A stretch of 8,855 nucleotides of DNA, from NCBI GenBank assembly GCA_030619985.1, contig JAUXAI010000050.1:1-8855 (forward strand). The letters run 5' to 3'. Below, piece after piece: positions 433 to 8,855 of this stretch. This stretch comes from a bacterium (GTDB lineage: Bacteria; UBP18; UBA7526). Position numbers and translations under genes: made by a program. The notes under the pieces were generated by a model. That model was not told the origin of the DNA. It did not search any database and saw nothing but the letters and a program-made list of their open reading frames with translations. Positions within the stretch are counted from its first letter, which is position 1, and every line of letters begins with the position of its first letter.

Positions 433-979
433 GAGAAAGAAGAAGCCAAGAGGAAAATTGGCGCAGCTCAAGAGCGAATTGGATCAGATTCAGCACGAAT
501 TGGAGAAGGAACGCAGATTAGCCTCTGAATATAAAGAGCATCTCCAGAGGCTAGCGGCAGACTTCGAAAACTATAGAAAGAGAGTAAAAAAAGAAAGAGA
601 AGACTTTGTCAAATTTTCAAAAGAGGATTTAGTTTACGAACTTCTACCCATCCTGGATAACTTCGAGATGGCCCTCCATCATGTAAAGAATACCACAGAG
701 CCCAAAAAGATAATAGAAGGAATAGAATTGATAGAGAGGCAGTTCCACAATATCCTGAAGAAGGAGGGTTTACAAGTTATTGAGACCAAAGGAAAGAAGT
801 TCGATCCCCATATCCATGAGGCAATAATGCATGAGGAGACCGATAAACATCCTGAAGGACTTATCATTGAGGAACTGCGCAAAGGATATACCCTGGGTGG
901 TAAAGTAATCAGACCCGCTCAAGTGAAAGTTGCAAAGAAACGCGAATTAACGCGAACTGAAAAACAGAAAACGGAATAA
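422..979 (+). CDS. grpE: GrpE nucleotide exchange factor
   Basis: GrpE is the cytosolic homodimeric exchange factor that releases ADP from DnaK. The 185-aa product has a charged N-terminus, a long coiled-coil helix (about residues 10-60, [17 protein letters not shown]), the family core [16 protein letters not shown], and the C-terminal beta domain with [20 protein letters not shown] and a [18 protein letters not shown] ending. The ATG lies within hrcA (11-nt overlap), implying translational coupling; only a weak GGAAAGAG precedes it. The family normally ends near VKVAK. Here a further tail, [13 protein letters not shown], follows, and it is encoded by a CGCGAAT-type repeat that also supplies the stop codon; a near-identical tail occurs in YqeY of this window. 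The tail is therefore probably acquired and dispensable for GrpE function (inference). Confidence 0.97.
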
Positions 980-1024
980 ACAGGACGCGAATCAACGCGA
1001 ATAATTCGCGAGAATTCGCGTTAA
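938..1024 (+). repeat. CGCGAAT decamer compound repeat at the grpE 3' end
   Basis: ACGCGAAT-type units recur with 10-nt period. One pair at 940-957 lies inside the last codons of grpE. A second pair at 985-1004 lies after the stop, and two inverted units (TTCGCG) follow at 1005-1024. The 984-1002 and 1004-1022 halves form an imperfect palindrome (19-nt arms, 4 mismatches). The distance between the two direct pairs is 45 nt, against 46 nt in the copy at yqeY. No T-run follows, so it is not a standard terminator, but the transcript could fold strongly here between grpE and dnaK. Confidence 0.85.
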
Positions 1025-1051
1025 GTCATTATTTAACATTCAGCAAAATAG

Positions 1052-1069
1052 ATTCGCGAAAATTCGCGT
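1052..1069 (-). repeat. Inverted CGCGAAT decamer pair before the dnaK RBS
   Basis: ATTCGCGAAAATTCGCGT is the reverse complement of the paired decamer seen at 940-957 and 985-1004. It ends 2 nt before the dnaK Shine-Dalgarno. In mRNA it could pair with either upstream direct copy and so influence access to the dnaK start (inference). Confidence 0.75.
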
Positions 1070-1071
1070 CA

Positions 1072-1077
1072 AGGAGG
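1072..1077 (+). promoter_or_regulatory. Ribosome-binding site of dnaK
   Basis: A full AGGAGG lies 8 nt before ATG 1086, one of the best Shine-Dalgarno sequences in the window. It sits directly downstream of the inverted CGCGAAT pair, which fits the need for high DnaK output relative to GrpE. Confidence 0.85.
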
Positions 1078-1085
1078 AATAAAGA

Positions 1086-3047
1086 ATGGCTAAGGTAATC
1101 GGAATTGATTTGGGAACAACAAACTCTGTAGTCTCTATTATGGAAGGAGGAAAGCCGACAGTCATCGCTTCTTCTGAGGGCCCAAGGACTGTTCCTTCTG
1201 TGGCCGCCTTTACTAAAACAGGGGAGAAGTTAGTTGGCCTTCCTGCCAAGAGGCAGGCCATCACTAATCCAGAGAATACCGTCTTTTCCATCAAGAGATT
1301 GATGGGTCGGCGCTTCCATGAGGAAGAGGTGGAGAGGGATAAGAAGATACTACCTTTTGAATTAGTAGAAGGACCCCATAACGATGTGAGAGTTAAAGTA
1401 AAAGACAAGGTCTATTCACCTCCGGAGATATCGGGTATGATTTTGGCCAAGATGAAAGCGGAGGCAGAGAGATATTTAGGAGAAAAGGTTACCCAGGCGG
1501 TGGTTACGGTCCCCGCCTATTTCCGGGATGATCAACGCCAGGCCACTAAGGATGCTGGTAGGATCGCTGGACTGGAGGTGTTAAGAATTGTTAATGAACC
1601 CACCGCCGCCTCTTTAGCCTACGGATTGGATAAAAAGGAAGAAGAGAAGATTGCCGTCTTCGATCTGGGCGGAGGAACCTTTGATATCTCCATTTTAGAG
1701 AATATGGGTGAAGGTGTCTTTCAGGTAAAATCTACCAATGGGAATACCCACTTAGGAGGAGACGATCTCGATCAGAAGGTAATCGATTGGCTCTGTGAGG
1801 AGTTCAAGAAAGAGCAGGGGATCGACTTGAAGCAAGACAGAATGGCTCTCCAGAGATTAAAGGAGGCCGCGGAGAAGGCAAAGTGTGAATTGTCCACTAC
1901 CCTGGAAACAGAGATCAACCTTCCCTTTATCACTGCAGACCAGACCGGGCCCAAGCATCTGGTTAAGAAACTGACCAGAGCCAAGTTGGAGCAACTGATT
2001 TCAGATATCGTTGAGAAGACCATCGGGCCCTGCGAACAGGCCCTGGCAGATGCCAAACTATCCCCCTCTGATATTGACGAGGTAATTTTGGTTGGTGGTC
2101 AGACCAGGATGCCTTTGGTAATAGAGACGGTGAAGAAGATATTTGGTAGGGAACCCCATAAGGGAGTTAATCCAGACGAGGTAGTGGCTGAGGGAGCAGC
2201 TATCCAGGCCGGGGTATTGACTGGTGAGGTTAAGGATGTTTTGCTTTTAGATGTTACTCCCCTTACCCTGGGCATTGAAATCCTGGGAGGAATCAGAACT
2301 CCCCTTATCTCCAGGAATACCACCATCCCCACCAAGAAATCCCAGATCTTCTCTACCGCAGCAGATAATCAGCCAGCGGTAACCATCAATGTCCTTCAGG
2401 GAGAGAGGCAGATGGCCACAGATAATAAGTCCTTAGGAAAGTTCGATCTGGTCGGCATTCCTCGGGCACCGAGAGGGATTCCCCAGATCGAGGTTACCTT
2501 TGACATCGATGCCAATGGTATCGTCCATGTCTCTGCCAAAGACTTAGGAACGGGAAAGGAGCAGTCCATAAAAATCACCTCTCAGAAGATGACGGAAGAA
2601 GAGATTGAGAAAGCGGTCAAGGAAGCCGAGTCAAAAGAGGCTGAAGATAAGAAGAGGAAGGAAGAGGCAGAGGTAAGGAATCAGGCAGACACCTTAGTCT
2701 ACGCTACAGAGAAGTCTCTAAAGGACTATGGGGATAAGGTGAGTGCTCCTGAGAAGAAGAAGATTGAGGATGCTTTGAATAACCTTAAAGAGGCCCTGAA
2801 AGGAAAGGATATAGAAAAGATTAAGAAGGCCTCTGAAGAGTTGGGCAAGGCCTCTCATAAATTGGCAGAGGAGGTCTACCGGGAAGCTCAGAAGAAGGCC
2901 ACCGAACAAGCAAAGAAGGCCAAAGAAGAGAAACCTAAGGAAGAAAAGAAACCACCGCCTGAAGGCGGGGTGCCGCCAAAGGCGGCAAGAGAAGACATAG
3001 TAGAAGCAGAATACAAAGAGGAAGAGGAGAAGAAAGAAGAGAAATGA
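1086..3047 (+). CDS. dnaK: DnaK (Hsp70) molecular chaperone
   Basis: ATP-dependent cytosolic chaperone working with DnaJ and GrpE. The 653-aa length is normal. The nucleotide-binding domain shows [11 protein letters not shown] (4-14), [18 protein letters not shown] (141-158), the phosphate-2 motif [14 protein letters not shown] (189-202) and [11 protein letters not shown] (333-343). The interdomain linker is [10 protein letters not shown] (384-393), followed by the substrate-binding beta domain and helical lid. Residues of about 80-105 ([17 protein letters not shown]...) match the extra segment of E. coli-type DnaK that Bacillus-type proteins lack, which points to a diderm lineage. The tail keeps the bacterial EDIVEAEY block but ends in EEEEKKEEK. 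Just before it is a Pro/Gly segment ([14 protein letters not shown]) encoded by two GC-rich dyads. The start is fixed by AGGAGG 8 nt upstream. Confidence 0.99.
2955..2987 (+). repeat. Tandem GC-rich dyads inside the dnaK tail
   Basis: Two perfect small hairpins stand next to each other: CCGCC-TGAA-GGCGG at 2955-2968 and TGCCGCC-AAA-GGCGGCA at 2971-2987. The arms are cross-compatible. They encode the Pro/Gly/Ala stretch of the DnaK tail, a variable disordered region. The GC content is far above that of the surrounding purine-rich lysine/glutamate codons. They may be an inserted palindromic repeat or an intragenic RNA structure; function is unknown. Confidence 0.6.
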
Positions 3048-3118
3048 TGACAGTGATGTTAAAAAATGATAGCAGTGATGGTTTTATTACCGTAATCAGA
3101 TTTTTATCACTGTAATCA
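3044..3118. repeat. Direct and inverted ACAGTGAT repeats between dnaK and dnaJ
   Basis: ATGATGACAGTGATGTT (3044-3060) is repeated imperfectly about 22 nt later (3066-3083, GCAGTGATGG). ACCGTAATCA (3089-3098) recurs as ACTGTAATCA (3109-3118), 20 nt later. ATCACTGT at 3106-3113 is the exact reverse complement of ACAGTGAT at 3050-3057, so the gap can fold into a long hairpin with a loop of about 48 nt. It occupies almost the whole 90-nt gap and begins at the dnaK stop codon. Confidence 0.7.
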
Positions 3119-3120
3119 CT

Positions 3121-3135
3121 CTGAGCGAAGCGAAG
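3121..3135 (+). repeat. CTGAGCGAAGCGAAG module before dnaJ
   Basis: This 15-mer ends 2 nt before the dnaJ ATG and recurs with one mismatch (CTGAGCAAAGCGAAG) at 7705-7719 before the cvpA-like gene. In both places it follows a separate repeat tract ending in ACT. Here it replaces a clear Shine-Dalgarno: only GAAGAG touches the start codon. It may be a mobile or amplifying leader module (inference). Confidence 0.6.
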
Positions 3136-3137
3136 AG

Positions 3138-4301
3138 ATGACTATTAAGCGTGATTATTATGAGATACTGGGCATAGATCGGAATGCCTCCTCAGATGAG
3201 ATAAAGAAGGCCTATAGAACCCTGGCTCTTCAGAACCATCCAGACAAGGTGCCCCCAGATGAGAAGAAGGAGGCAGAGGAGAGATTTAAGGAGATATCCG
3301 AGGCCTATGCTGTTCTCTCTGATCCAGAGAAGAGGCCCACCTATGATCAGTTTGGCCATGCGGGCATCGATGGACAATATACCTACCAGGATATCTTTCG
3401 GGGTGCCGACTTTGGAAGTATATTTGGGGGAAGAGGCTTTGAGGATATCCTGAGGGGCTTTGGCCTTGGAGGGACATTTGCTGATATCTTCTCTGAGTTC
3501 TTCGGTACCCGGGTAGAGAGAAGGGCTCGTCGGGGAGCAGACTTAGAATACCCCCTGGATATCACCTTAGAAGAGGCAGCAAGGGGATGTGAGAAGAAGA
3601 TAAATATCTATCATACCGTCACCTGCCCCACTTGTAAGGGGAGCGGAGCAAAGCCGGGAACGGGAAAGAGGACCTGCCCCCAGTGCCAGGGAACGGGGCA
3701 GATAAGGTATACTCAGGCCTTCTTTACCTTCTCTCAGACCTGCCCCCAGTGTCGAGGAACGGGTGAGGTAATTGAGGCAGCCTGTGGCCAGTGTCATGGA
3801 AGAGGAAAGATCAAGAAGGCCTCCAAGATATCTTTAAAGGTTCCTTCCGGTGTGGATACCGGAACCTCGATCAGGGTAAGGGGCAGAGGGGAGGCGGGAG
3901 AACTCGGTGGTCCATCTGGTGATCTCTATGTCACCATTCGTCTAAAACCCCATAAGATATTTGAACAAGAGGGAAGCGACCTCTACTGTGAAGTACCCCT
4001 CAGTTTCGCCACTGCTGCCCTGGGAGGGGAGATTAAGGTGCCTACCCTTGAGGGAAAGGTTACCATGAAGATTCCTTCCGGGACCCAGACAGATAAAGTC
4101 TTCAGACTGAAGGGAAAAGGGGTCCCTTCTCTCCACGGCCATAGTAAGGGAGATGAGTACGTAAAGGTCATTATCCAAGTACCTACTCGATTGAACGAGA
4201 AACAAAGAGAAATCTTAAAAGAGTTTGCTCAGGCAGGCGGCGAGAAGCTCTCTGTCTCCAAAAAGAGCATCCTTGATAAGATAAAAGATACCTTTAAATG
4301 A
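3138..4301 (+). CDS. dnaJ: DnaJ (Hsp40) co-chaperone
   Basis: DnaJ delivers substrates to DnaK and stimulates its ATPase. The 387-aa protein is a complete type I J-protein: J domain (residues 6-71, DYYEILGIDRNAS, with HPD at 34-36 and KRPTYDQFGH at its end), Gly/Phe region (about 85-125, FGSIFGGRGFEDILRGFG), zinc domain with four CxxCxGxG repeats (CPTCKGSG 163, CPQCQGTG 180, CPQCRGTG 202, CGQCHGRG 216), and the C-terminal substrate-binding and dimerisation domains. The ATG gives the expected short N-terminus. There is no strong Shine-Dalgarno; the repeat module GAGCGAAGCGAAG directly precedes the start. The stop overlaps the rsmE start (ATGA). Confidence 0.99.
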   Translation: MTIKRDYYEILGIDRNASSDEIKKAYRTLALQNHPDKVPPDEKKEAEERFKEISEAYAVLSDPEKRPTYDQFGHAGIDGQYTYQDIFRGADFGSIFGGRGFEDILRGFGLGGTFADIFSEFFGTRVERRARRGADLEYPLDITLEEAARGCEKKINIYHTVTCPTCKGSGAKPGTGKRTCPQCQGTGQIRYTQAFFTFSQTCPQCRGTGEVIEAACGQCHGRGKIKKASKISLKVPSGVDTGTSIRVRGRGEAGELGGPSGDLYVTIRLKPHKIFEQEGSDLYCEVPLSFATAALGGEIKVPTLEGKVTMKIPSGTQTDKVFRLKGKGVPSLHGHSKGDEYVKVIIQVPTRLNEKQREILKEFAQAGGEKLSVSKKSILDKIKDTFK

Positions 4302-5053
4302 GACGCTTTTTTGTTGAAGAGGGAAATATTAAAGAAAATAAAGTCATCATAAAAGGGGATGAGGCAAGACATATCGCCCAGGTCTTAAGACTCGGAGAGA
4401 AAGACAGAATAAAAGTCTTCACCAGGAAAGGAAGAGAATACTTAATCGAAATTAGAGAAGCGAGCAAAAAAGAAGTAATCGGAAAAATTCTAAAAGGAAC
4501 AAAACTAAAGACTGAACCGAGGGTTTCTATAACCTTGGTCCAAGGATTGCCTAAGAAAGACAAGATGGATTTCATCGTCCAGAAGGCCACGGAACTGGGA
4601 GTAAAGAAAGTAATTCCAGTCATTACCCAGAGAACGATTGTAAAACTCGATAGAGAGAAAGCGAAAGCGCGCCAGGTTCGCTGGCAGAGGATCGCTTTAG
4701 AGGCCACAAAGCAATCCGGCAGAGCGATCATCCCAGAAGTCGATGGAGTAACCACTTTTGTTCAATCACTCAACAATATAAGTGAAGAAAATTTGAATCT
4801 CATCCCCTGGGAAGAAGAAGAAACTACTTCTCTGAAAAAGGTTTTAAAACGTCATACATCACACATCTCACATCCCACATCCCAGATCACTGTCTTCATT
4901 GGACCAGAAGGTGGATTCACCCTTGAAGAAGTAAGGGCAGCAAAGGAGAGAGGGGCGATTCCGGTAAGCCTTGGACCAAGACTCTTGCGCACCGAAACTG
5001 CGGGTCTGGCCACTTTAGCCATGATTCTGTATGAACTGGGTGACCTGGGATAA
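4298..5053 (+). CDS. rsmE: RsmE, 16S rRNA m3U1498 methyltransferase
   Basis: RsmE is a SPOUT-class, SAM-dependent methyltransferase that makes m3U1498 in 16S rRNA of the 30S subunit. The 251-aa protein has an N-terminal PUA-like domain with HIAQVLRL (25-32), then KKDKMDFIVQKATELGV (86-102), RWQRIALEATKQSGR (128-142), and the trefoil-knot motifs IGPEGGFT (201-208) and LGPRLLRTETA (225-235). Its ATG overlaps the dnaJ TGA as ATGA, so translation is probably coupled. In Bacillus and Clostridium prmA precedes rsmE; it is missing here. The loop just before the IGPEGG motif, residues 186-196 (HTSHISHPTSQ), is encoded by five 7-nt repeats and looks foreign to the family. Confidence 0.97.
   Translation: MRRFFVEEGNIKENKVIIKGDEARHIAQVLRLGEKDRIKVFTRKGREYLIEIREASKKEVIGKILKGTKLKTEPRVSITLVQGLPKKDKMDFIVQKATELGVKKVIPVITQRTIVKLDREKAKARQVRWQRIALEATKQSGRAIIPEVDGVTTFVQSLNNISEENLNLIPWEEEETTSLKKVLKRHTSHISHPTSQITVFIGPEGGFTLEEVRAAKERGAIPVSLGPRLLRTETAGLATLAMILYELGDLG
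4853..4887 (+). repeat. Intragenic heptamer tract in rsmE (five CNCACAT-like units)
   Basis: Five consecutive 7-nt units end in ACAT or AGAT (CATACAT, CACACAT and so on). Because 7 is not a multiple of 3, the units fall in all three codon phases and yield the mixed peptide HTSHISHPTSQ. The tract is 35 nt, the same length as the tract before mtaB. It maps to the variable loop before the catalytic knot, where an insertion would be tolerated. Confidence 0.75.
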
Positions 5054-5054
5054 A

Positions 5055-5089
5055 GTTTACGGTTAACGGTGTACGGTTTACGGTAAACG
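5055..5089 (+). repeat. Five GTNNACG heptamers filling the rsmE-mtaB gap
   Basis: Five perfect-phase 7-nt units with consensus GTNNACG (NN = TT, TA, GT, TT, AA) run from 2 nt after the rsmE stop codon to the base before the mtaB ATG. The whole 36-nt gap is this tract plus one base, so no Shine-Dalgarno is present. Removing the 35 nt would leave TAA-A-ATG, a normal tight junction, which suggests insertion or expansion between two previously adjacent genes. Confidence 0.9.
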
Positions 5090-6394
5090 ATGAAAGAACA
5101 GAGAAGTGTTGCCTTTCATACCCTGGGTTGTAAGGTAAATCAATACGATACCCAGGCCATGATAGAGGCCCTGGCAAAGGATTATAAAATAGTATCTAGC
5201 GAAGAGAAGGCAGATATCTACATTATTAACACCTGTACGGTTACCAGTCGAGCCGATCAGAAGTCCCGTCAATATATAAGAGGCATTATCAGAAAGAATT
5301 CAGAGGCCTTTGTTGCTGTTACTGGTTGTTATGCTCAAAGGCTACCCGAAGAGATCGCCCGAATTCAAGGGGTAGACTTAATCTTAGGGAATGAAGAGAA
5401 GAATGGAATTGCCTCCGTTCTTGATCAAGCGGGAAAGAACTCCAGGCCCGAAGTCTTTGTGGAGAATATTGACTCTCGCTCAAGATATGATACCCTGAAA
5501 GTAACCAGACACCAGTCTCATTCCCGGGCCTTCGTCAAGATACAAGATGGCTGCCAAAACTATTGTTCCTACTGTATCATCCCTTATGTTCGGGGAAAGC
5601 AGAGGAGCCGACCCTTAAAAGATACCTTGGAGGAGATTGAGGGGCTGGTAAGAAACGGCTTCAGGGAGGTCGTCTTAACCGGCATTCGTTTGGGCTCCTG
5701 GGGTCAAGACCTAAATGGCAGAGTCACTCTTGCTACACTCTTAGAAAAGGTTTCTGAAATAGAAGACTTAAAGCGTGTTAGATTAAGTTCTATAGAACCC
5801 AGGGACTTGAGTGAGGAATTGATAGACAGAATTGCCCAGCTTCCCAAGGTCTGCCGCCATCTCCACATTCCCTTGCAGAGTGGAGATGGTAAGGTCCTAA
5901 AAGCAATGAATCGACCTTATGATACTTTCTATTACCAGGATTTGATAGAGAGAATCAGGGAGAAAATTAAGGGGGCGGCGATTACCACTGATGTTATGGC
6001 CGGCTTCCCCGGGGAAGGAAAAGGGGAGTTTGAAAATACCTATAATTTTGCTTACCAGATGAAGTTTTCTAAGATGCATATCTTTAGATACTCTCCTCGT
6101 CCCGGAACCCCCGCCACCCAACTTAAAGGAAAGGTGAGAGAGCAAGAGATTAAGAAAAGGAGTAGAAGATTATTAGAATTATCTTCAAAGATGCAAGAAG
6201 GGTTCAACCGGTCATTTTTAGGCGAGACCTTAGAAGTTCTTGTGGAGAGAAGAAAAGAGAGCGATTGTTTAACTGGTCTTACAGATAACTATATAAGGGC
6301 AGTCTTTGATGGCCCAGAAAACTTGGTAAATAAGATAGTAAAAGTAAAAATTACCCAGATCGAGAAAGGATATGTCATAGGAAAGCTGATGTGA
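5090..6394 (+). CDS. mtaB: MtaB, tRNA t6A37 methylthiotransferase
   Basis: MtaB is a radical-SAM enzyme that converts t6A37 to ms2t6A37 in tRNAs reading ANN codons. The 434-aa protein has the UPF0004 N-terminal domain with cluster cysteines C14 (HTLGCKVNQYD), C49 (INTCTVTSRAD) and C80 (TGCYAQ). The radical-SAM motif is C155-x3-C159-x2-C162 (DGCQNYCSYCIIPYVRG), and a C-terminal TRAM domain starts at about 370. HTLGCKVNQY and CTVTSRAD separate MtaB from MiaB and RimO. The start is forced: a TAA lies in frame at 5084-5086, and MKEQRSVAFHTLGCK matches family N-termini. There is no Shine-Dalgarno, since the heptamer tract abuts the ATG; initiation may rely on coupling to rsmE. The stop overlaps the next gene (GTGA). 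Confidence 0.96.
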   Translation: MKEQRSVAFHTLGCKVNQYDTQAMIEALAKDYKIVSSEEKADIYIINTCTVTSRADQKSRQYIRGIIRKNSEAFVAVTGCYAQRLPEEIARIQGVDLILGNEEKNGIASVLDQAGKNSRPEVFVENIDSRSRYDTLKVTRHQSHSRAFVKIQDGCQNYCSYCIIPYVRGKQRSRPLKDTLEEIEGLVRNGFREVVLTGIRLGSWGQDLNGRVTLATLLEKVSEIEDLKRVRLSSIEPRDLSEELIDRIAQLPKVCRHLHIPLQSGDGKVLKAMNRPYDTFYYQDLIERIREKIKGAAITTDVMAGFPGEGKGEFENTYNFAYQMKFSKMHIFRYSPRPGTPATQLKGKVREQEIKKRSRRLLELSSKMQEGFNRSFLGETLEVLVERRKESDCLTGLTDNYIRAVFDGPENLVNKIVKVKITQIEKGYVIGKLM

Positions 6395-6735
6395 AAGAAT
6401 GCCTTTTCTGTAAGATTATAAAGAAGGAGATCCCAAGTGAAATAGTCTATGAGGATGATAGACTGATTGCCATAAAGGACATCAGCCCTCAGGCGCCGGT
6501 CCATCTTTTAATCATTCCCAAAAAGCATGTCTCAACCCTCTTAGATTTGAGTGAGGAGGACAAGGAACTAATAGGCCACGTCTATTTAGTGGCCAATAAA
6601 TTAGCTAAGGAAAAATCCACTGCCCAGTGCGGCTTTAGAATTGTAGCCAACTGTGGTCCGGATTCTGGCCAGGAGGTCTTCCACATCCACTTCCATCTCT
6701 TGGGAGGAAGGAAACTCGGCTGGCCCCCTGGTTAA
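6391..6735 (+). CDS. HIT-family (HinT-type) nucleotide hydrolase
   Basis: This is a small purine-nucleotide phosphoramidase or hydrolase of the histidine-triad family, 114 aa, the usual size for HinT. Visible are the zinc-type cysteines C4 and C7 (ECLFCKII), KEIPSEIVYEDD, the core PVHLLIIPKKHVSTL, and the catalytic triad motif HIHFHLLGGR (H98, H100, H102), with H102 followed by LL as expected. The start is GTG, overlapping the mtaB TGA as GTGA; no in-frame ATG fits the conserved N-terminus. An AGGA lies 8 nt upstream inside mtaB. A HIT gene at this position, between mtaB and rpsU, is also known from clostridial clusters. Confidence 0.95.
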   Translation: MKECLFCKIIKKEIPSEIVYEDDRLIAIKDISPQAPVHLLIIPKKHVSTLLDLSEEDKELIGHVYLVANKLAKEKSTAQCGFRIVANCGPDSGQEVFHIHFHLLGGRKLGWPPG

Positions 6736-6740
6736 TTCAG

Positions 6741-6772
6741 TTGATAAGTTAATAAATTAACTAGTTGATAAG
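6741..6772 (+). repeat. TTGATAAG octamer tract after the HIT gene
   Basis: There are four 8-nt units in phase: TTGATAAG, TTAATAAA, TTAACTAG, TTGATAAG. The first and last are identical. It begins 5 nt after the stop codon and is AT-rich. I checked it as a promoter, but no well-spaced -35/-10 pair stands out. Confidence 0.65.
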
Positions 6773-6784
6773 TCAAAAGTTGCT

Positions 6785-6878
6785 CGGTTACGGTTAGGGT
6801 TAAGATGCCCGTTTCGGCTACGTTATTCGGTTACGTAACCGTAACCCCTAAACGATACGGGCTTCGTTACCGTAACCC
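6785..6878. repeat. CGGTTA dyad cluster upstream of rpsU
   Basis: Three 6-nt units (CGGTTA, CGGTTA, GGGTTA; 6785-6802) are followed by complementary copies. GGTTACGGTTA at 6786-6796 pairs exactly with TAACCGTAACC at 6836-6846. GCCCGTTTCG at 6807-6816 pairs 9 of 10 with CGATACGGGC at 6853-6862. The two helices cross (first-with-first, second-with-second), which is an H-type pseudoknot order. CGGTTACGTAACCG (6828-6841) is a perfect palindrome, and GTTAC-C-GTAAC (6866-6876) is a further small dyad. This fills most of the rpsU leader. Confidence 0.65.
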
Positions 6879-6880
6879 TT

Positions 6881-6894
6881 CGACGTACGACGTA
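6881..6894 (+). repeat. CGACGTA heptamer pair before the rpsU RBS
   Basis: Two exact 7-nt copies of CGACGTA end 3 nt before the rpsU Shine-Dalgarno. This is the same unit length as the tracts at rsmE, mtaB and cvpA but with a different sequence. Confidence 0.6.
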
Positions 6895-6897
6895 AGA

Positions 6898-6903
6898 GGG
6901 AGG
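6898..6903 (+). promoter_or_regulatory. Ribosome-binding site of rpsU
   Basis: GGGAGG lies 9 nt before ATG 6913. An out-of-frame ATG at 6909-6911 lies between the two and would give only ten codons before TGA; the conserved MAKIEVRE start selects 6913. Confidence 0.75.
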
Positions 6904-6912
6904 TGTTTATGA

Positions 6913-7161
6913 ATGGCGAAGATAGAAGTGAGAGAGCATGAGTCCATTGAAGAGGCCCTGAGGAGATTTAAAAGGGCACTCCAGAAATCGGGCATCCTCT
7001 CTGAGGCAAAGAAGAGAAGGAATTATGAGAAGCCCTCTGAAAAGAGAAGGAGAAAGAAGATTGAGGCCGAAAAGCGCCGCAGGAAGAGACTCGCCCGAGC
7101 AAGGAGGGACAGAAGGGAAAGAGGAAGAGGAAGGAGAGGAGGAGGGGGAGGGAGAAGATGA
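6913..7161 (+). CDS. rpsU: 30S ribosomal protein S21
   Basis: S21 is a small basic protein of the 30S platform near the anti-Shine-Dalgarno end of 16S rRNA. The sequence has the typical core [20 protein letters not shown] (residues 10-29) followed by [15 protein letters not shown]. At 82 aa it is longer than the common 58-71 aa forms because of an Arg/Gly tail ending [13 protein letters not shown]. That tail is encoded by an unbroken 48-nt purine tract which also contains the yqeY Shine-Dalgarno, so part of the poly-Gly may be imposed by the RBS (inference). The stop overlaps the yqeY start as ATGA. The rpsU-yqeY pairing is common in bacteria. Confidence 0.95.
7111..7158 (+). other. 48-nt homopurine tract across the rpsU/yqeY junction
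   Basis: Every base from 7111 to 7158 is A or G, ending at the A of the yqeY ATG. It contains GGAGGAGGGGGAGGGAG, both a strong Shine-Dalgarno region for yqeY and a G-rich stretch able in principle to form a two-layer quadruplex or a triplex. Much of it follows from the general purine bias of the coding strand. Confidence 0.7.
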
Positions 7162-7649
7162 AATTAAAGGAGAAGTTGAACGAGGATATGAGGAAGGCCT
7201 TAAGAGAAAAGGATACTCTGAGGCTCTCCACCATCCGCCTTCTCTTGGCAGCAATTAAAAACTTGGAGATCGCTAAGGGAAAGGATAAGGAGCTGAAAGA
7301 GTCTGATCTCATAGGGGCTTTGAGCTCTGAAGCCAAGAAGAGGAAAGAGTCAATTGAGGAATATAAAAAAGGTAAGCGAGAAGACTTGGTGGAGAAGGAG
7401 ACGAAGGAACTTGAGATCATTAAAGAATATCTGCCCAAAGAACTTTCTCCAGAAGAACTAGGAAGAATAATAGAGGAGACGATTGAAGAAATAGACGCAA
7501 AGGACCTTAAGGATATGGGGAAGGTAATGGGCGCTGTCATGGAAAAGATTAAGGGAAGGGCAGATGGTAAGGTAGTCAATCAGATGGTGAGAGAAAGACT
7601 CACAAAACGCGAATCTACGCGAATAACAGAAGCAGATGAACCTAAATAA
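7158..7649 (+). CDS. yqeY: YqeY/GatB-like domain protein
   Basis: YqeY proteins resemble the tRNA-binding C-terminal domain of GatB. Their role is not settled; a link to tRNA-dependent amidotransfer is inferred from that similarity. The sequence has [19 protein letters not shown] (1-19), [18 protein letters not shown] (26-43), [31 protein letters not shown] and [26 protein letters not shown] (about 121-146), all conserved family blocks. At 163 aa it exceeds the usual ~148. The surplus is the tail [14 protein letters not shown], encoded by the CGCGAAT decamer element that also provides the TAA, exactly as in grpE. The ATGA overlap with rpsU and the purine-rich RBS indicate coupled translation. 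Confidence 0.94.
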
Positions 7650-7670
7650 CCAACGCGAATCTACGCGAAT
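7605..7670 (+). repeat. CGCGAAT decamer compound repeat at the yqeY 3' end
   Basis: The 19-mer AACGCGAATCTACGCGAAT occurs exactly twice, at 7606-7624 (inside yqeY) and 7652-7670 (after its stop). Each copy is two ACGCGAAT units 10 nt apart. The arrangement, spacing (46 nt), phase and enclosed TAA match the element at grpE 938-1002, whose spacing is 45 nt, so the two look like copies of one element of 63-64 nt. Confidence 0.9.
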
Positions 7671-7671
7671 T

Positions 7672-7706
7672 GTAAACTGTTCACTGTTCACTGTTCACTC
7701 CCGACT
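7672..7706 (+). repeat. Five heptamers (GTTCACT type) before the cvpA-like gene
   Basis: There are five 7-nt units in phase: GTAAACT, three exact GTTCACT, then CCCGACT. The 35-nt length and five units equal the tracts at 4853-4887 and 5055-5089, though the unit sequence differs. It starts 1 nt after the decamer element. Confidence 0.85.
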
Positions 7707-7719
7707 GAGCAAAGCGAAG
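7705..7719 (+). repeat. CTGAGCAAAGCGAAG module before the cvpA-like gene
   Basis: This is the second copy (14 of 15 identical) of the module found directly upstream of dnaJ at 3121-3135. It runs into the ribosome-binding site GGAGGGG at 7719-7725, which is unusually close (about 4 nt) to ATG 7728. Confidence 0.6.
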
Positions 7720-7727
7720 GAGGGGAG

Positions 7728-8411
7728 ATGAGCTGGTTGGATGGAGTAATCGTTATCGCTTTAGCCTATGGCCTGATCAGAGGCTTATTCAAGGGATTCT
7801 TTAGAGAGGTCTTTCAGCTCTTAGGTATCATATTAGCCATCATCATCGCCTTTCATCACTTCCAGACCCTAGGGAATTACTTAGTAAGCCTCTTCAATTG
7901 GCCAGTCATGGTAGCCAATGGCGTTGGGTTCCTTTTAATCTCTTTTATTGTTGCCGGAGTCTGCTATCTCTTGGGCCTCTTCTTACGCCGGGCAACCAGG
8001 TTCCTGGCCATAAGGTGGCTGGACATGATTGGAGGAGGAGGATTCGGAGTCTTGAAACTGGCTCTCATCATAAGCCTCCTTCTGAATGCCTCCCTCCTCC
8101 TTTCTTCACCCCTCCCCAGCATGAAAGAAAGATTGAAAGACGAATTCAATAAGACCCTTCTGGTAGAACCCATAAGGGGCCTGGCCCCAGCCTTTTACAA
8201 TTTAGTAGTCAAGGTAATTCCTTTTGGGAAGAAATTCGAATATCAAAAGTTCTTTCCCAAAGTTCCGGCCCTTCCCAAGAAAAACCAGGAAGCCATGGTG
8301 CGCAATAAAATCAAGGAGATGTTGAAAGAAAAACTGGATCGAGAGACGATGGAGACCCTGGTAAAAAAGGAATTAGCAAGGAAAAGGTGGGGGAGATCAA
8401 AGAAGCCTTGA
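7728..8411 (+). CDS. CvpA-family membrane protein (zero-frame product)
   Basis: CvpA-type proteins are inner-membrane proteins with about four transmembrane helices; the E. coli member is needed for colicin V production, but the general role is unclear. Helices are visible at about residues 5-20 (VIVIALAYGLIRGLF), 28-45 (EVFQLLGIILAIIIAF), 60-85 (VANGVGFLLISFIVAGVCYL) and 103-125 (GGGGFGVLKLALIISLLL). The opening DGVIVIALAYGLIRGLFKGFFREVFQ fits the family start (read as positions 7740-7815). The soluble C-terminus is a charged helix. The zero frame ends KRWGRSKKP at TGA 8411, giving 227 aa. The helical reading clearly continues in the -1 frame to 8530, so this stop probably reflects a frameshift site, a mutation or a sequencing error. 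Confidence 0.88.
   Translation: MSWLDGVIVIALAYGLIRGLFKGFFREVFQLLGIILAIIIAFHHFQTLGNYLVSLFNWPVMVANGVGFLLISFIVAGVCYLLGLFLRRATRFLAIRWLDMIGGGGFGVLKLALIISLLLNASLLLSSPLPSMKERLKDEFNKTLLVEPIRGLAPAFYNLVVKVIPFGKKFEYQKFFPKVPALPKKNQEAMVRNKIKEMLKEKLDRETMETLVKKELARKRWGRSKKP
8363..8369 (+). promoter_or_regulatory. Candidate -1 frameshift heptamer A AAA AAG in the cvpA-like gene
   Basis: In the zero frame the codons are GTA AAA AAG, so bases 8363-8369 read A AAA AAG, the same heptamer as the E. coli dnaX frameshift site, in the correct phase. A GGAG at 8351-8354 lies 8 nt upstream, resembling the stimulatory Shine-Dalgarno of dnaX; purine-rich DNA makes this common. Downstream I find only a weak CAAGG/CCTTG stem (8377-8381 with 8406-8410). 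Slippage would give a 267-aa product instead of 227 aa. Confidence 0.4.
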
Positions 8412-8530
8412 AGAAATCGATTGATGAGATTGAGATGGGAGAACTTAAAAAGAGATTGAAGGCGGAGATAGAAAAGATTGAGATAGATCAAATCTTAAAG
8501 GAATTGGTCAAAGAGGGAGATAAATCTTAA
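8369..8530 (+). pseudogene. Continuation of the CvpA-like C-terminus in the -1 frame
   Basis: Read from GGA at 8369, this frame gives GISKEKVGEIKEALKK and further lysine/glutamate/leucine helix to DKS and TAA 8530, 53 codons in all. It joins smoothly to METLVKK of the upstream frame, and its composition and codon use match it. It has no good independent start (GTG 8387 and an ATG inside are possible but lack support). A seventh A in the run at 8363-8368 would fuse the frames without any slippage, so loss of one A (real or from sequencing) is the main alternative to programmed frameshifting. Confidence 0.7.
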
Positions 8531-8533
8531 CGA

Positions 8534-8638
8534 ATCCCGTTAGACCTAAATAAATCACAGGTGTAACAGGAAAAAATGATTTTTATAAAAAATAGGATAT
8601 TTGCAGGATAAAAATTGAGAAAGGAGGTCTAACGGGAT
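8534..8638 (+). promoter_or_regulatory. Perfect 14-nt inverted repeat enclosing the leader and RBS of the downstream gene
   Basis: ATCCCGTTAGACCT (8534-8547) and AGGTCTAACGGGAT (8625-8638) are exact reverse complements separated by 77 nt. The right arm includes the 3' part of the Shine-Dalgarno (AAGGAGG, 8621-8627) and the first two bases of the ATG at 8637. Base pairing in mRNA would hide the start. The intervening 77 nt are AT-rich and hold direct repeats CAGGAAAAAATGA (8567) and CAGGATAAAAATTGA (8604). It could be a translational switch, an operator-like DNA site, or the footprint of an inserted element. Confidence 0.7.
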
Positions 8639-8855
8639 GAAACTGGAGAGAATCTATAGATTGGCAGTGGAAAAGGGAATGGCAAATGATCCCAGGGGAA
8701 AGAGAGAGGTAGAAAAAGTCCTAAAGAGGCGAAGGAAAGAATATGATAAGTTACCAAAGGAAGAAAAGAGGGACTTCGATTTAGAGAAACTCAACCATCC
8801 CTATAGCGATACCAGGATACTCTATGGGGATCCAGATAAAGAAATCAAGACCTTC
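8637..8855 (+). CDS. Probable NIF3-like protein, N-terminal part (3' end outside window)
   Basis: An open frame of 73 codons starts at ATG 8637 and is cut by the window end. It begins MKLERIYRLAVEKGMANDPRG, continues with a charged helix (KREVEKVLKRRRKEYDKLP), then LNHPYSDTRILYGDPDKEIKTF. From memory this resembles the N-terminus of the longer bacterial proteins annotated as NGG1p-interacting factor 3 (NIF3)-like, thought to be dinuclear-metal proteins; the metal-binding histidines would lie beyond the window, so the family is not proven. AAGGAGG ends 9 nt before the start, a strong RBS, but it is overlapped by the inverted repeat. It is 106 nt after the -1 frame stop of the cvpA-like gene. 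Confidence 0.6.
   Translation, partial: MKLERIYRLAVEKGMANDPRGKREVEKVLKRRRKEYDKLPKEEKRDFDLEKLNHPYSDTRILYGDPDKEIKTF

Follow-up and report, generated by a model that had tools for sequence, protein, structure and literature searches.

The short repeats at the gene junctions of an 8,855-nt stretch of bacterial DNA (the window) are best read as dispersed non-autonomous elements that draw on a shared pool of repeat units and are partly adapted to translational coupling. The window is the whole of contig C31 of a MAG (1.25 Mb, 84% complete) belonging to a UBP18-type lineage, and its gene order is hrcA-grpE-dnaK-dnaJ-rsmE-mtaB-HIT-rpsU-yqeY-cvpA-orf-nif3, where the first ten names were assigned with Pfam and the nif3 label comes from the initial sequence reading. 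Within the reach of their contigs, five relatives have the same order (L091 to L095, labelled for instance UBP18_UBA7526 or with MAG names that refer to cold seeps or hydrothermal sites). The genome search yielded six genomes of one family, the source included; all others were related at domain level alone. The congener G002, used for most comparisons, has a median protein identity of 92% to the source genome (reciprocal best hits).

Genome-wide counts were made on 730 kb of the 1.25 Mb, taken as stretches. TRF detected 287 arrays in 187 of the 444 gaps of at least 20 nt (42%), compared with 3-10 arrays in first-order (dinucleotide-type) shuffles. Array density in gaps was 2.8 per kb in the source genome versus 0.24-0.48 per kb in 75 other genomes, which contained about 7 times fewer gap arrays; two congeners had 2.5 per kb each, and 3.2 and 3.7 per kb in gaps shorter than 1500 nt. 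The shuffles and the 75 control genomes contradict the possibility that the repeats are no more common than intergenic composition would give, and composition is ruled out as their cause. Our gene caller misses some same-strand genes, so that some of the 'gaps' hold real genes, which dilutes these effects rather than creating them. An assembly artefact was also ruled out, because independent assemblies repeat the same junction arrays (the yqeY-cvpA array in L092 and L094, the dnaK-dnaJ repeat in L091, L092 and L095) and tracts within coding sequence hold the frame. The arrays have units of 7-10 nt and are approximately 30-37 bp long where the unit is 7 or 8 nt. Period 7 accounts for 44 of the 287 intergenic arrays; at higher stringency, over the whole sample and with doubled periods included, 87 were counted.

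In the window, each of the six gaps for which the sequence-only reading had reported repeats does hold a tandem or an inverted repeat at the coordinates it gave. The four start/stop overlaps it counted were also confirmed, and a fifth had been overlooked: a short conserved ORF (8387-8530, + strand; 91-98% identity in L091 and L094), located between the cvpA-like gene and the nif3 cassette, overlaps the cvpA-like gene. The grpE-dnaK junction (939-1076, +) contains the decamer ACGCGAATNN in two sense and two antisense pairs just 5' of the SD AAGGAGG. Pattern matching on C31 placed the sense pairs at 941-956, within the tail of grpE, and at 986-1001 (both +); the antisense pairs, of the ATTCGCGNNATTCGCG type, lie near 1003-1021 and 1053-1070. 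In the predicted MFE fold (-30.3 kcal/mol) the outer sense and antisense copies are paired. L091, L094 and L095 have unrelated sequence or repeats at this junction. The L091 gap (about 1445-1820) carries an extra ORF-like stretch between repeats, MNKKAIDELSNKIIGIAIEIHKTLGPGF..., which we take to be of the GxxExxY type. The dnaK-dnaJ junction (3048-3137, +; fold z -4.0) consists of an inverted repeat, CAGTGATG..(loop)..ATCACTG, followed by a minihairpin of a covarying family (CTCT-GA-GC-GAA-GC-GA-AGAG, +) directly 5' of the dnaJ ATG (3138); it is kept in L091, L092 and L095 and replaced in L093 and L094.

Between rsmE and mtaB (5055-5089, +) there are five heptamers, GTTTACG GTTAACG GTGTACG GTTTACG GTAAACG, and the ends of the tract are inverted (GTTTAC/GTAAAC). 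In L091, L092, L094 and L095 the site is a stop/start overlap, ATGA. Three heptamer tracts of exactly five units had been claimed; in gaps this holds only for the rsmE-mtaB tract, as the array at 7676-7699 has 3.4 perfect units and the one at 4852-4890 (+; ACATCNC, approximately five units by TRF) lies inside the rsmE coding sequence, in a protein linker. The HIT-rpsU junction (6736-6912, +) begins near the stop with an octamer array of AGTTGATA (6739-6781, +), continues with a nested inverted repeat (GGTTACGGTTAGGGTTA.. / ..TAACCGTAACCC) and ends with the SD GGGAGGTG; the octamer array is common to L091, and L092, L093 and L094 differ. A longer nested inverted repeat of the GGTTAGGGTAAGGTAGTGGGTTTGG..CCAACTACCTAACC type was seen within other gap elements, as if elements inserted into elements (window 6736-6912; L042 3609-3857; L061 7368-7569; L075 16093-16337). 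The yqeY-cvpA junction (7605-7727, +) has two ACGCGAATNN pairs (7608-7623 and 7654-7669, +, pattern match), the GTTCACT heptamer array at 7676-7699 (+, TRF) and, 3' of it, a hairpin (CTCCC..GGGAG, +) that contains the SD; it is kept in L092 and L094 and replaced in L091 and L093. The repeat reported at 8531-8636 before nif3 is not tandem, and a 14-bp inverted repeat does bracket this gap. It belongs to a 103-bp cassette, TCCCGTTAGACCT...AGGTCTAACGGGA (8535-8637, +), flanked by CGAA and TGAA. The right arm of the cassette overlaps the SD AGGAGGT, and its last base, A, forms with the adjoining TG the nif3 start codon (8637-8639). The cassette is present in L094; L091 is without it and has a TTAATG overlap there.

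The repeats had been described as packed against the following start codon. Over the genome sample, arrays were most over-represented directly behind the preceding stop codon: 51 lie within 0-5 nt of it, where 14.3 were expected. A weaker excess was seen at 10-30 nt ahead of the next start (68 arrays, about 44 expected), and the 10 nt adjoining the start are depleted. Arrays close to the stop share a consistent orientation (100 against 5), of which those close to the start are the reverse complement (87 against 18). Where a gap holds two arrays, the left and right arrays matched as inverted copies in 46% of cases, compared with 11% when partners were permuted. Many gaps are thus inverted repeats whose arms are tandem-repeat arrays, an arrangement missed in the earlier description as phased tandem repeats. 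The association with gene borders is only partial: similar arrays are found, and get swapped, within coding linkers as well.

The units are many, yet they come from a shared repertoire. The 730 kb contained 47 heptamer, 56 octamer and 20 decamer majority units. The ACGCGAATNN and GTNNACG families each have a fixed core and two free positions per unit; both occur in all six family members, and they were found in 4 of 284 and 1 of 110 other genomes, respectively. Among G002 arrays, 61% of those with heptamer and 60% of those with octamer units use a unit also used in the source genome (8% and 3%, respectively, with letter-shuffled units), a sharing that is partly due to conserved arrays.

Comparison of orthologous sites revealed extensive turnover. 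At 224 orthologous junctions of the source genome and G002, 54 were short in one genome and a gap in the other, a number that may include gene-start miscalls, since a few were seen among the examples. Of 101 arrays compared with G002, 22 were conserved, 48 were replaced by a different array and 31 had no array in G002 (23 lost, 8 with a junction shorter than 20 nt), so that individual arrays are indeed absent or swapped in relatives, as a sister-gap comparison had been expected to reveal. One junction was found in three states: a ATCAGTGATCGG-type element in the source, a TGGATAGT-type element in G001 and a 12-nt junction in G002. In 35 of 46 pairs of diverged orthologous gaps, an arm paired better with its partner from its own genome than with that of the other genome (p = 5e-6), indicating that both arms change together. 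The different repeat words at the same spot in relatives point to an unusual moving or rewriting process. The literature that we searched, the older STRR papers excepted, yielded no account of repeat units being exchanged at orthologous sites.

The clearest cases of replacement are in-gene tracts, as their flanks can be aligned. Arrays with periods 7, 8, 10, 11, 14 and 16 numbered 70 in genes compared with 15 in codon-shuffled genes. The linker of RsmE has four heptamer families in six genomes: ACATCNC (window and L095), GTAAACG (L091), GATCCNG (L092 and L093) and ATCACCG (L094), the last interrupted by an inserted GC hairpin. GC-rich hairpins of approximately 25-40 nt were seen in frame inside coding heptamer arrays in the L094 rsmE linker and in the G002 orthologue of L081 gene 17. 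We read through the comparison with G002 ourselves, leaving out low-complexity arrays and period-11 arrays of peptide-like character; of the 17 comparable in-gene arrays, about 8 had another array in their place, 6 were conserved and 3 were absent, and G001 added about 5 further replacements. In L054 gene 3 the unit length itself shifts at one site, from an 8-mer to a 7-mer. The arrays being lineage-restricted, present or absent between sisters and often replaced by another unit, the proposal of an active genome-wide process is supported.

The pattern noted earlier is therefore real and larger than first described, and it includes a class of cassettes that rebuild the start codon. These cassettes have YCCCG...CGGGR boundary arms of 11-13 bp, and the SD lies within or directly beside the right arm. 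Among 38 cassettes followed by TG, the end of 24 coincides with a called start codon, so that the last base of the cassette completes RTG; the counts may include a few duplicates of one copy type, because neighbouring 20-kb stretches and near-identical copies were left unmerged. The outermost base is complementary to the base that opens the start codon (T with ATG in 15, C with GTG in 23), a pairing built into the search by the exact arms it required. An exact 4-bp flank match, mostly TGAA, was found in 29 of these 38, where TGAA might in part stem from the sequence around stops (TGA) and starts (RTGAA) instead of target duplication. Identical flanks in 5 of 11 cassettes without a following TG (four TCAA, one TTGA) are suggestive of true duplication. 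At the arrays target duplication was not evident. Empty cassette sites are stop/start overlaps, as in AAAAGATGAACGAG versus AAAAGATGAATCCCG...CGGGATGAACGAG and in the nif3 junction of the window versus L091. Hairpins of 50-51 nt of the CCCCGCACC/CCCCGCCCC kind, located away from start codons and most with TCAA or TTGA on both sides, were seen in L047, L059, L063, L183 and L033 and possibly form a separate subfamily. The minihairpin NNC-GA-NN-GRA-NN-GA-GNN occurred 116 times in sense and 25 times in antisense orientation in 754 gaps; for 59 copies the distance from their end to the following start is below 10 nt. Five of its stem positions pair above shuffled expectation, and its 3' arm holds an SD-like sequence. 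The core, GCGAAGC, is known to form a DNA minihairpin of unusual stability.

An effect on translation initiation had been suggested for the repeats in general. Folds with z < -2 were predicted for 33% of gaps, compared with 2% of coding and 18% of control sequence, but array gaps (30%) did not exceed array-free gaps (34%). As array gaps are not extra-structured and the dnaK SD is predicted to be open, nothing supports a part for the arrays as such in translation. The idea that they serve generally as RNA-structure elements found no support either, and it is safer to regard them as having spread with no demonstrated function. For the SD-containing hairpins the suggestion is plausible. Stems of at least 11 bp joining stop to start were found in 19 of 355 gaps (0.9 expected), and a role of cassettes and minihairpins in translational coupling is plausible from the stems and the placement of the SD, the coupling itself being our inference.

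We consider it probable that the window repeats as a whole represent lineage-wide small non-coding elements, copied in trans and partly engaged in coupling. The set comprises elements of about 35-250 nt between co-directional genes throughout the lineage. They would spread by a trans-acting copy process, which could resemble transposition or be gene conversion templated by other copies; unlinked loci share unit families and the inverted arms match, and slippage by itself accounts for neither. They would persist mainly where harm is low, at stop/start junctions and in protein linkers. In cassettes and minihairpins, selection may maintain a hairpin in the RNA by which the ribosome-binding site stays masked up to the arrival of the ribosome translating the preceding gene, in which case coupling would survive the splitting of a stop/start overlap. 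No RVT_1, Y1_Tnp, DDE_Tnp_1 or Cas1 genes were found in the six incomplete genomes; a reverse transcriptase, a RAYT-like Y1 enzyme, DDE_Tnp_1 and Cas1 were accordingly set aside as candidate engines. Tentatively, one could imagine a trans-acting system that rewrites tandem tracts in place without any of these enzymes, keeping position and rough length; the unit would then be exchanged for a word of the genome's repertoire in both arms at once, even inside genes.

The concerted change of the arms, the fixed positions at which gap and in-gene tracts shift their units, the unremarkable structure of array gaps and the lack of transposase, RT or Cas1 among the families tested would also fit neutral local mutation, in which slippage builds and homogenises tracts and quasi-palindrome template switching copies them into the opposite arm, as in fast minisatellites, with neither transposition nor function. 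We regard this as unlikely, since the sharing of unit families between many unlinked loci and between genera greatly exceeds chance, one site changed its unit length (L054 gene 3), elements are gained cleanly at stop/start overlaps, and cassettes are flanked by TGAA or TCAA. Simple slippage as the sole cause is insufficient given the recurring families and inverted arms. All the elements might instead be MITEs of one or more lost insertion-sequence families, the arrays being the appearance of their terminal repeats; inverted arms, 4-bp flank duplications, empty sites and sizes of 48-374 bp agree with this. It is nevertheless quite doubtful: arm sequences vary widely while the architecture is constant, target duplication at arrays is not convincing, single arrays in coding linkers often have no inverted partner, and the search for four families in six incomplete genomes yielded no transposase-bearing element. 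A regulator-binding role has been proposed for the TAACTGA repeats of marine Beggiatoaceae (PMC4679880). Arrays as sites for RNA- or DNA-binding regulators, with the repertoire reflecting many regulators, would account for the conserved core with two free positions (ACGCGAATNN, GTNNACG), the length of about 4-5 units and the fixed orientation to genes, but orthologous genes switch families between congeners and the same families occur inside coding linkers, making this explanation highly improbable.

In form the elements resemble heptameric STRR-type repeats, and they differ in repertoire, inversion and in-place replacement. The likeness to cyanobacterial heptamers suggested by the sequence-only reading extends to dispersed tandem units of 7 nt (44 of the 287 intergenic arrays here) in few copies, mostly intergenic and between co-directional genes, with a patchy taxonomy. 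In the accessible parts of the reports, GGGNATC of Xanthomonas and Nostoc (PMC4692102) and TAACTGA of marine Beggiatoaceae (PMC4679880) involve one or few unit sequences per genome, with no mention of inverted arms or unit swapping. Here, 730 kb hold many heptamer, octamer and decamer units, the two sides of a gap carry arms in opposite orientation, and orthologous sites, some of them in genes, trade one family for another. MITEs likewise are non-coding, with inverted termini (here the cassette arms and the inverted array arms), short flank duplications and empty sites in relatives, and a tandem-repeat-containing MITE is reported from Porphyromonas gingivalis (PMC4596501). Unlike MITEs, the elements described here have varied arm sequences, a right arm that holds the SD and a last base that completes the start codon, and no cognate transposase was found in the searches of the six incomplete genomes, which included DDE_Tnp_1 and Y1_Tnp. 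In coupling hairpins, for which an RNA unfolding model has been reviewed (PMC12548453), a stem from the upstream stop hides the downstream SD or start, as in the stop-to-start stems above; here, by contrast, the putative coupling hairpin recurs as a cassette scattered over sites that were once stop/start overlaps.

Rickettsia palindromic elements are small repeats, in families defined by sequence, that are inserted in frame into protein linkers. The in-gene arrays also sit in linkers, but relatives differ in the unit that a given linker carries. Intergenic repeats of heptamers are on record from several bacteria, and the present lineage may bear on their origin: it supplies dense before/after pairs (empty, one unit, another unit) in congeners of about 90% protein identity, so that slippage, transposition and templated rewriting can be separated by sequence. 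The cassettes, which supply both a ribosome-binding site and the missing base of the start codon, would represent a selfish insert that splits overlaps and leaves the operon unbroken.

Gene co-orientation in these genomes was extreme. Strand switches occurred in 7 of 630 adjacent gene pairs in the source, 17 of 499 in G002 and 1 of 124 in G001; the control loci had 118 in 733. Across seven consecutive 20-kb stretches of one G002 contig there was a single opposite-strand call. The sign of the GC skew agreed with the gene strand in 55 of 55 contig stretches (L031-L090, G001 and G002 sample).
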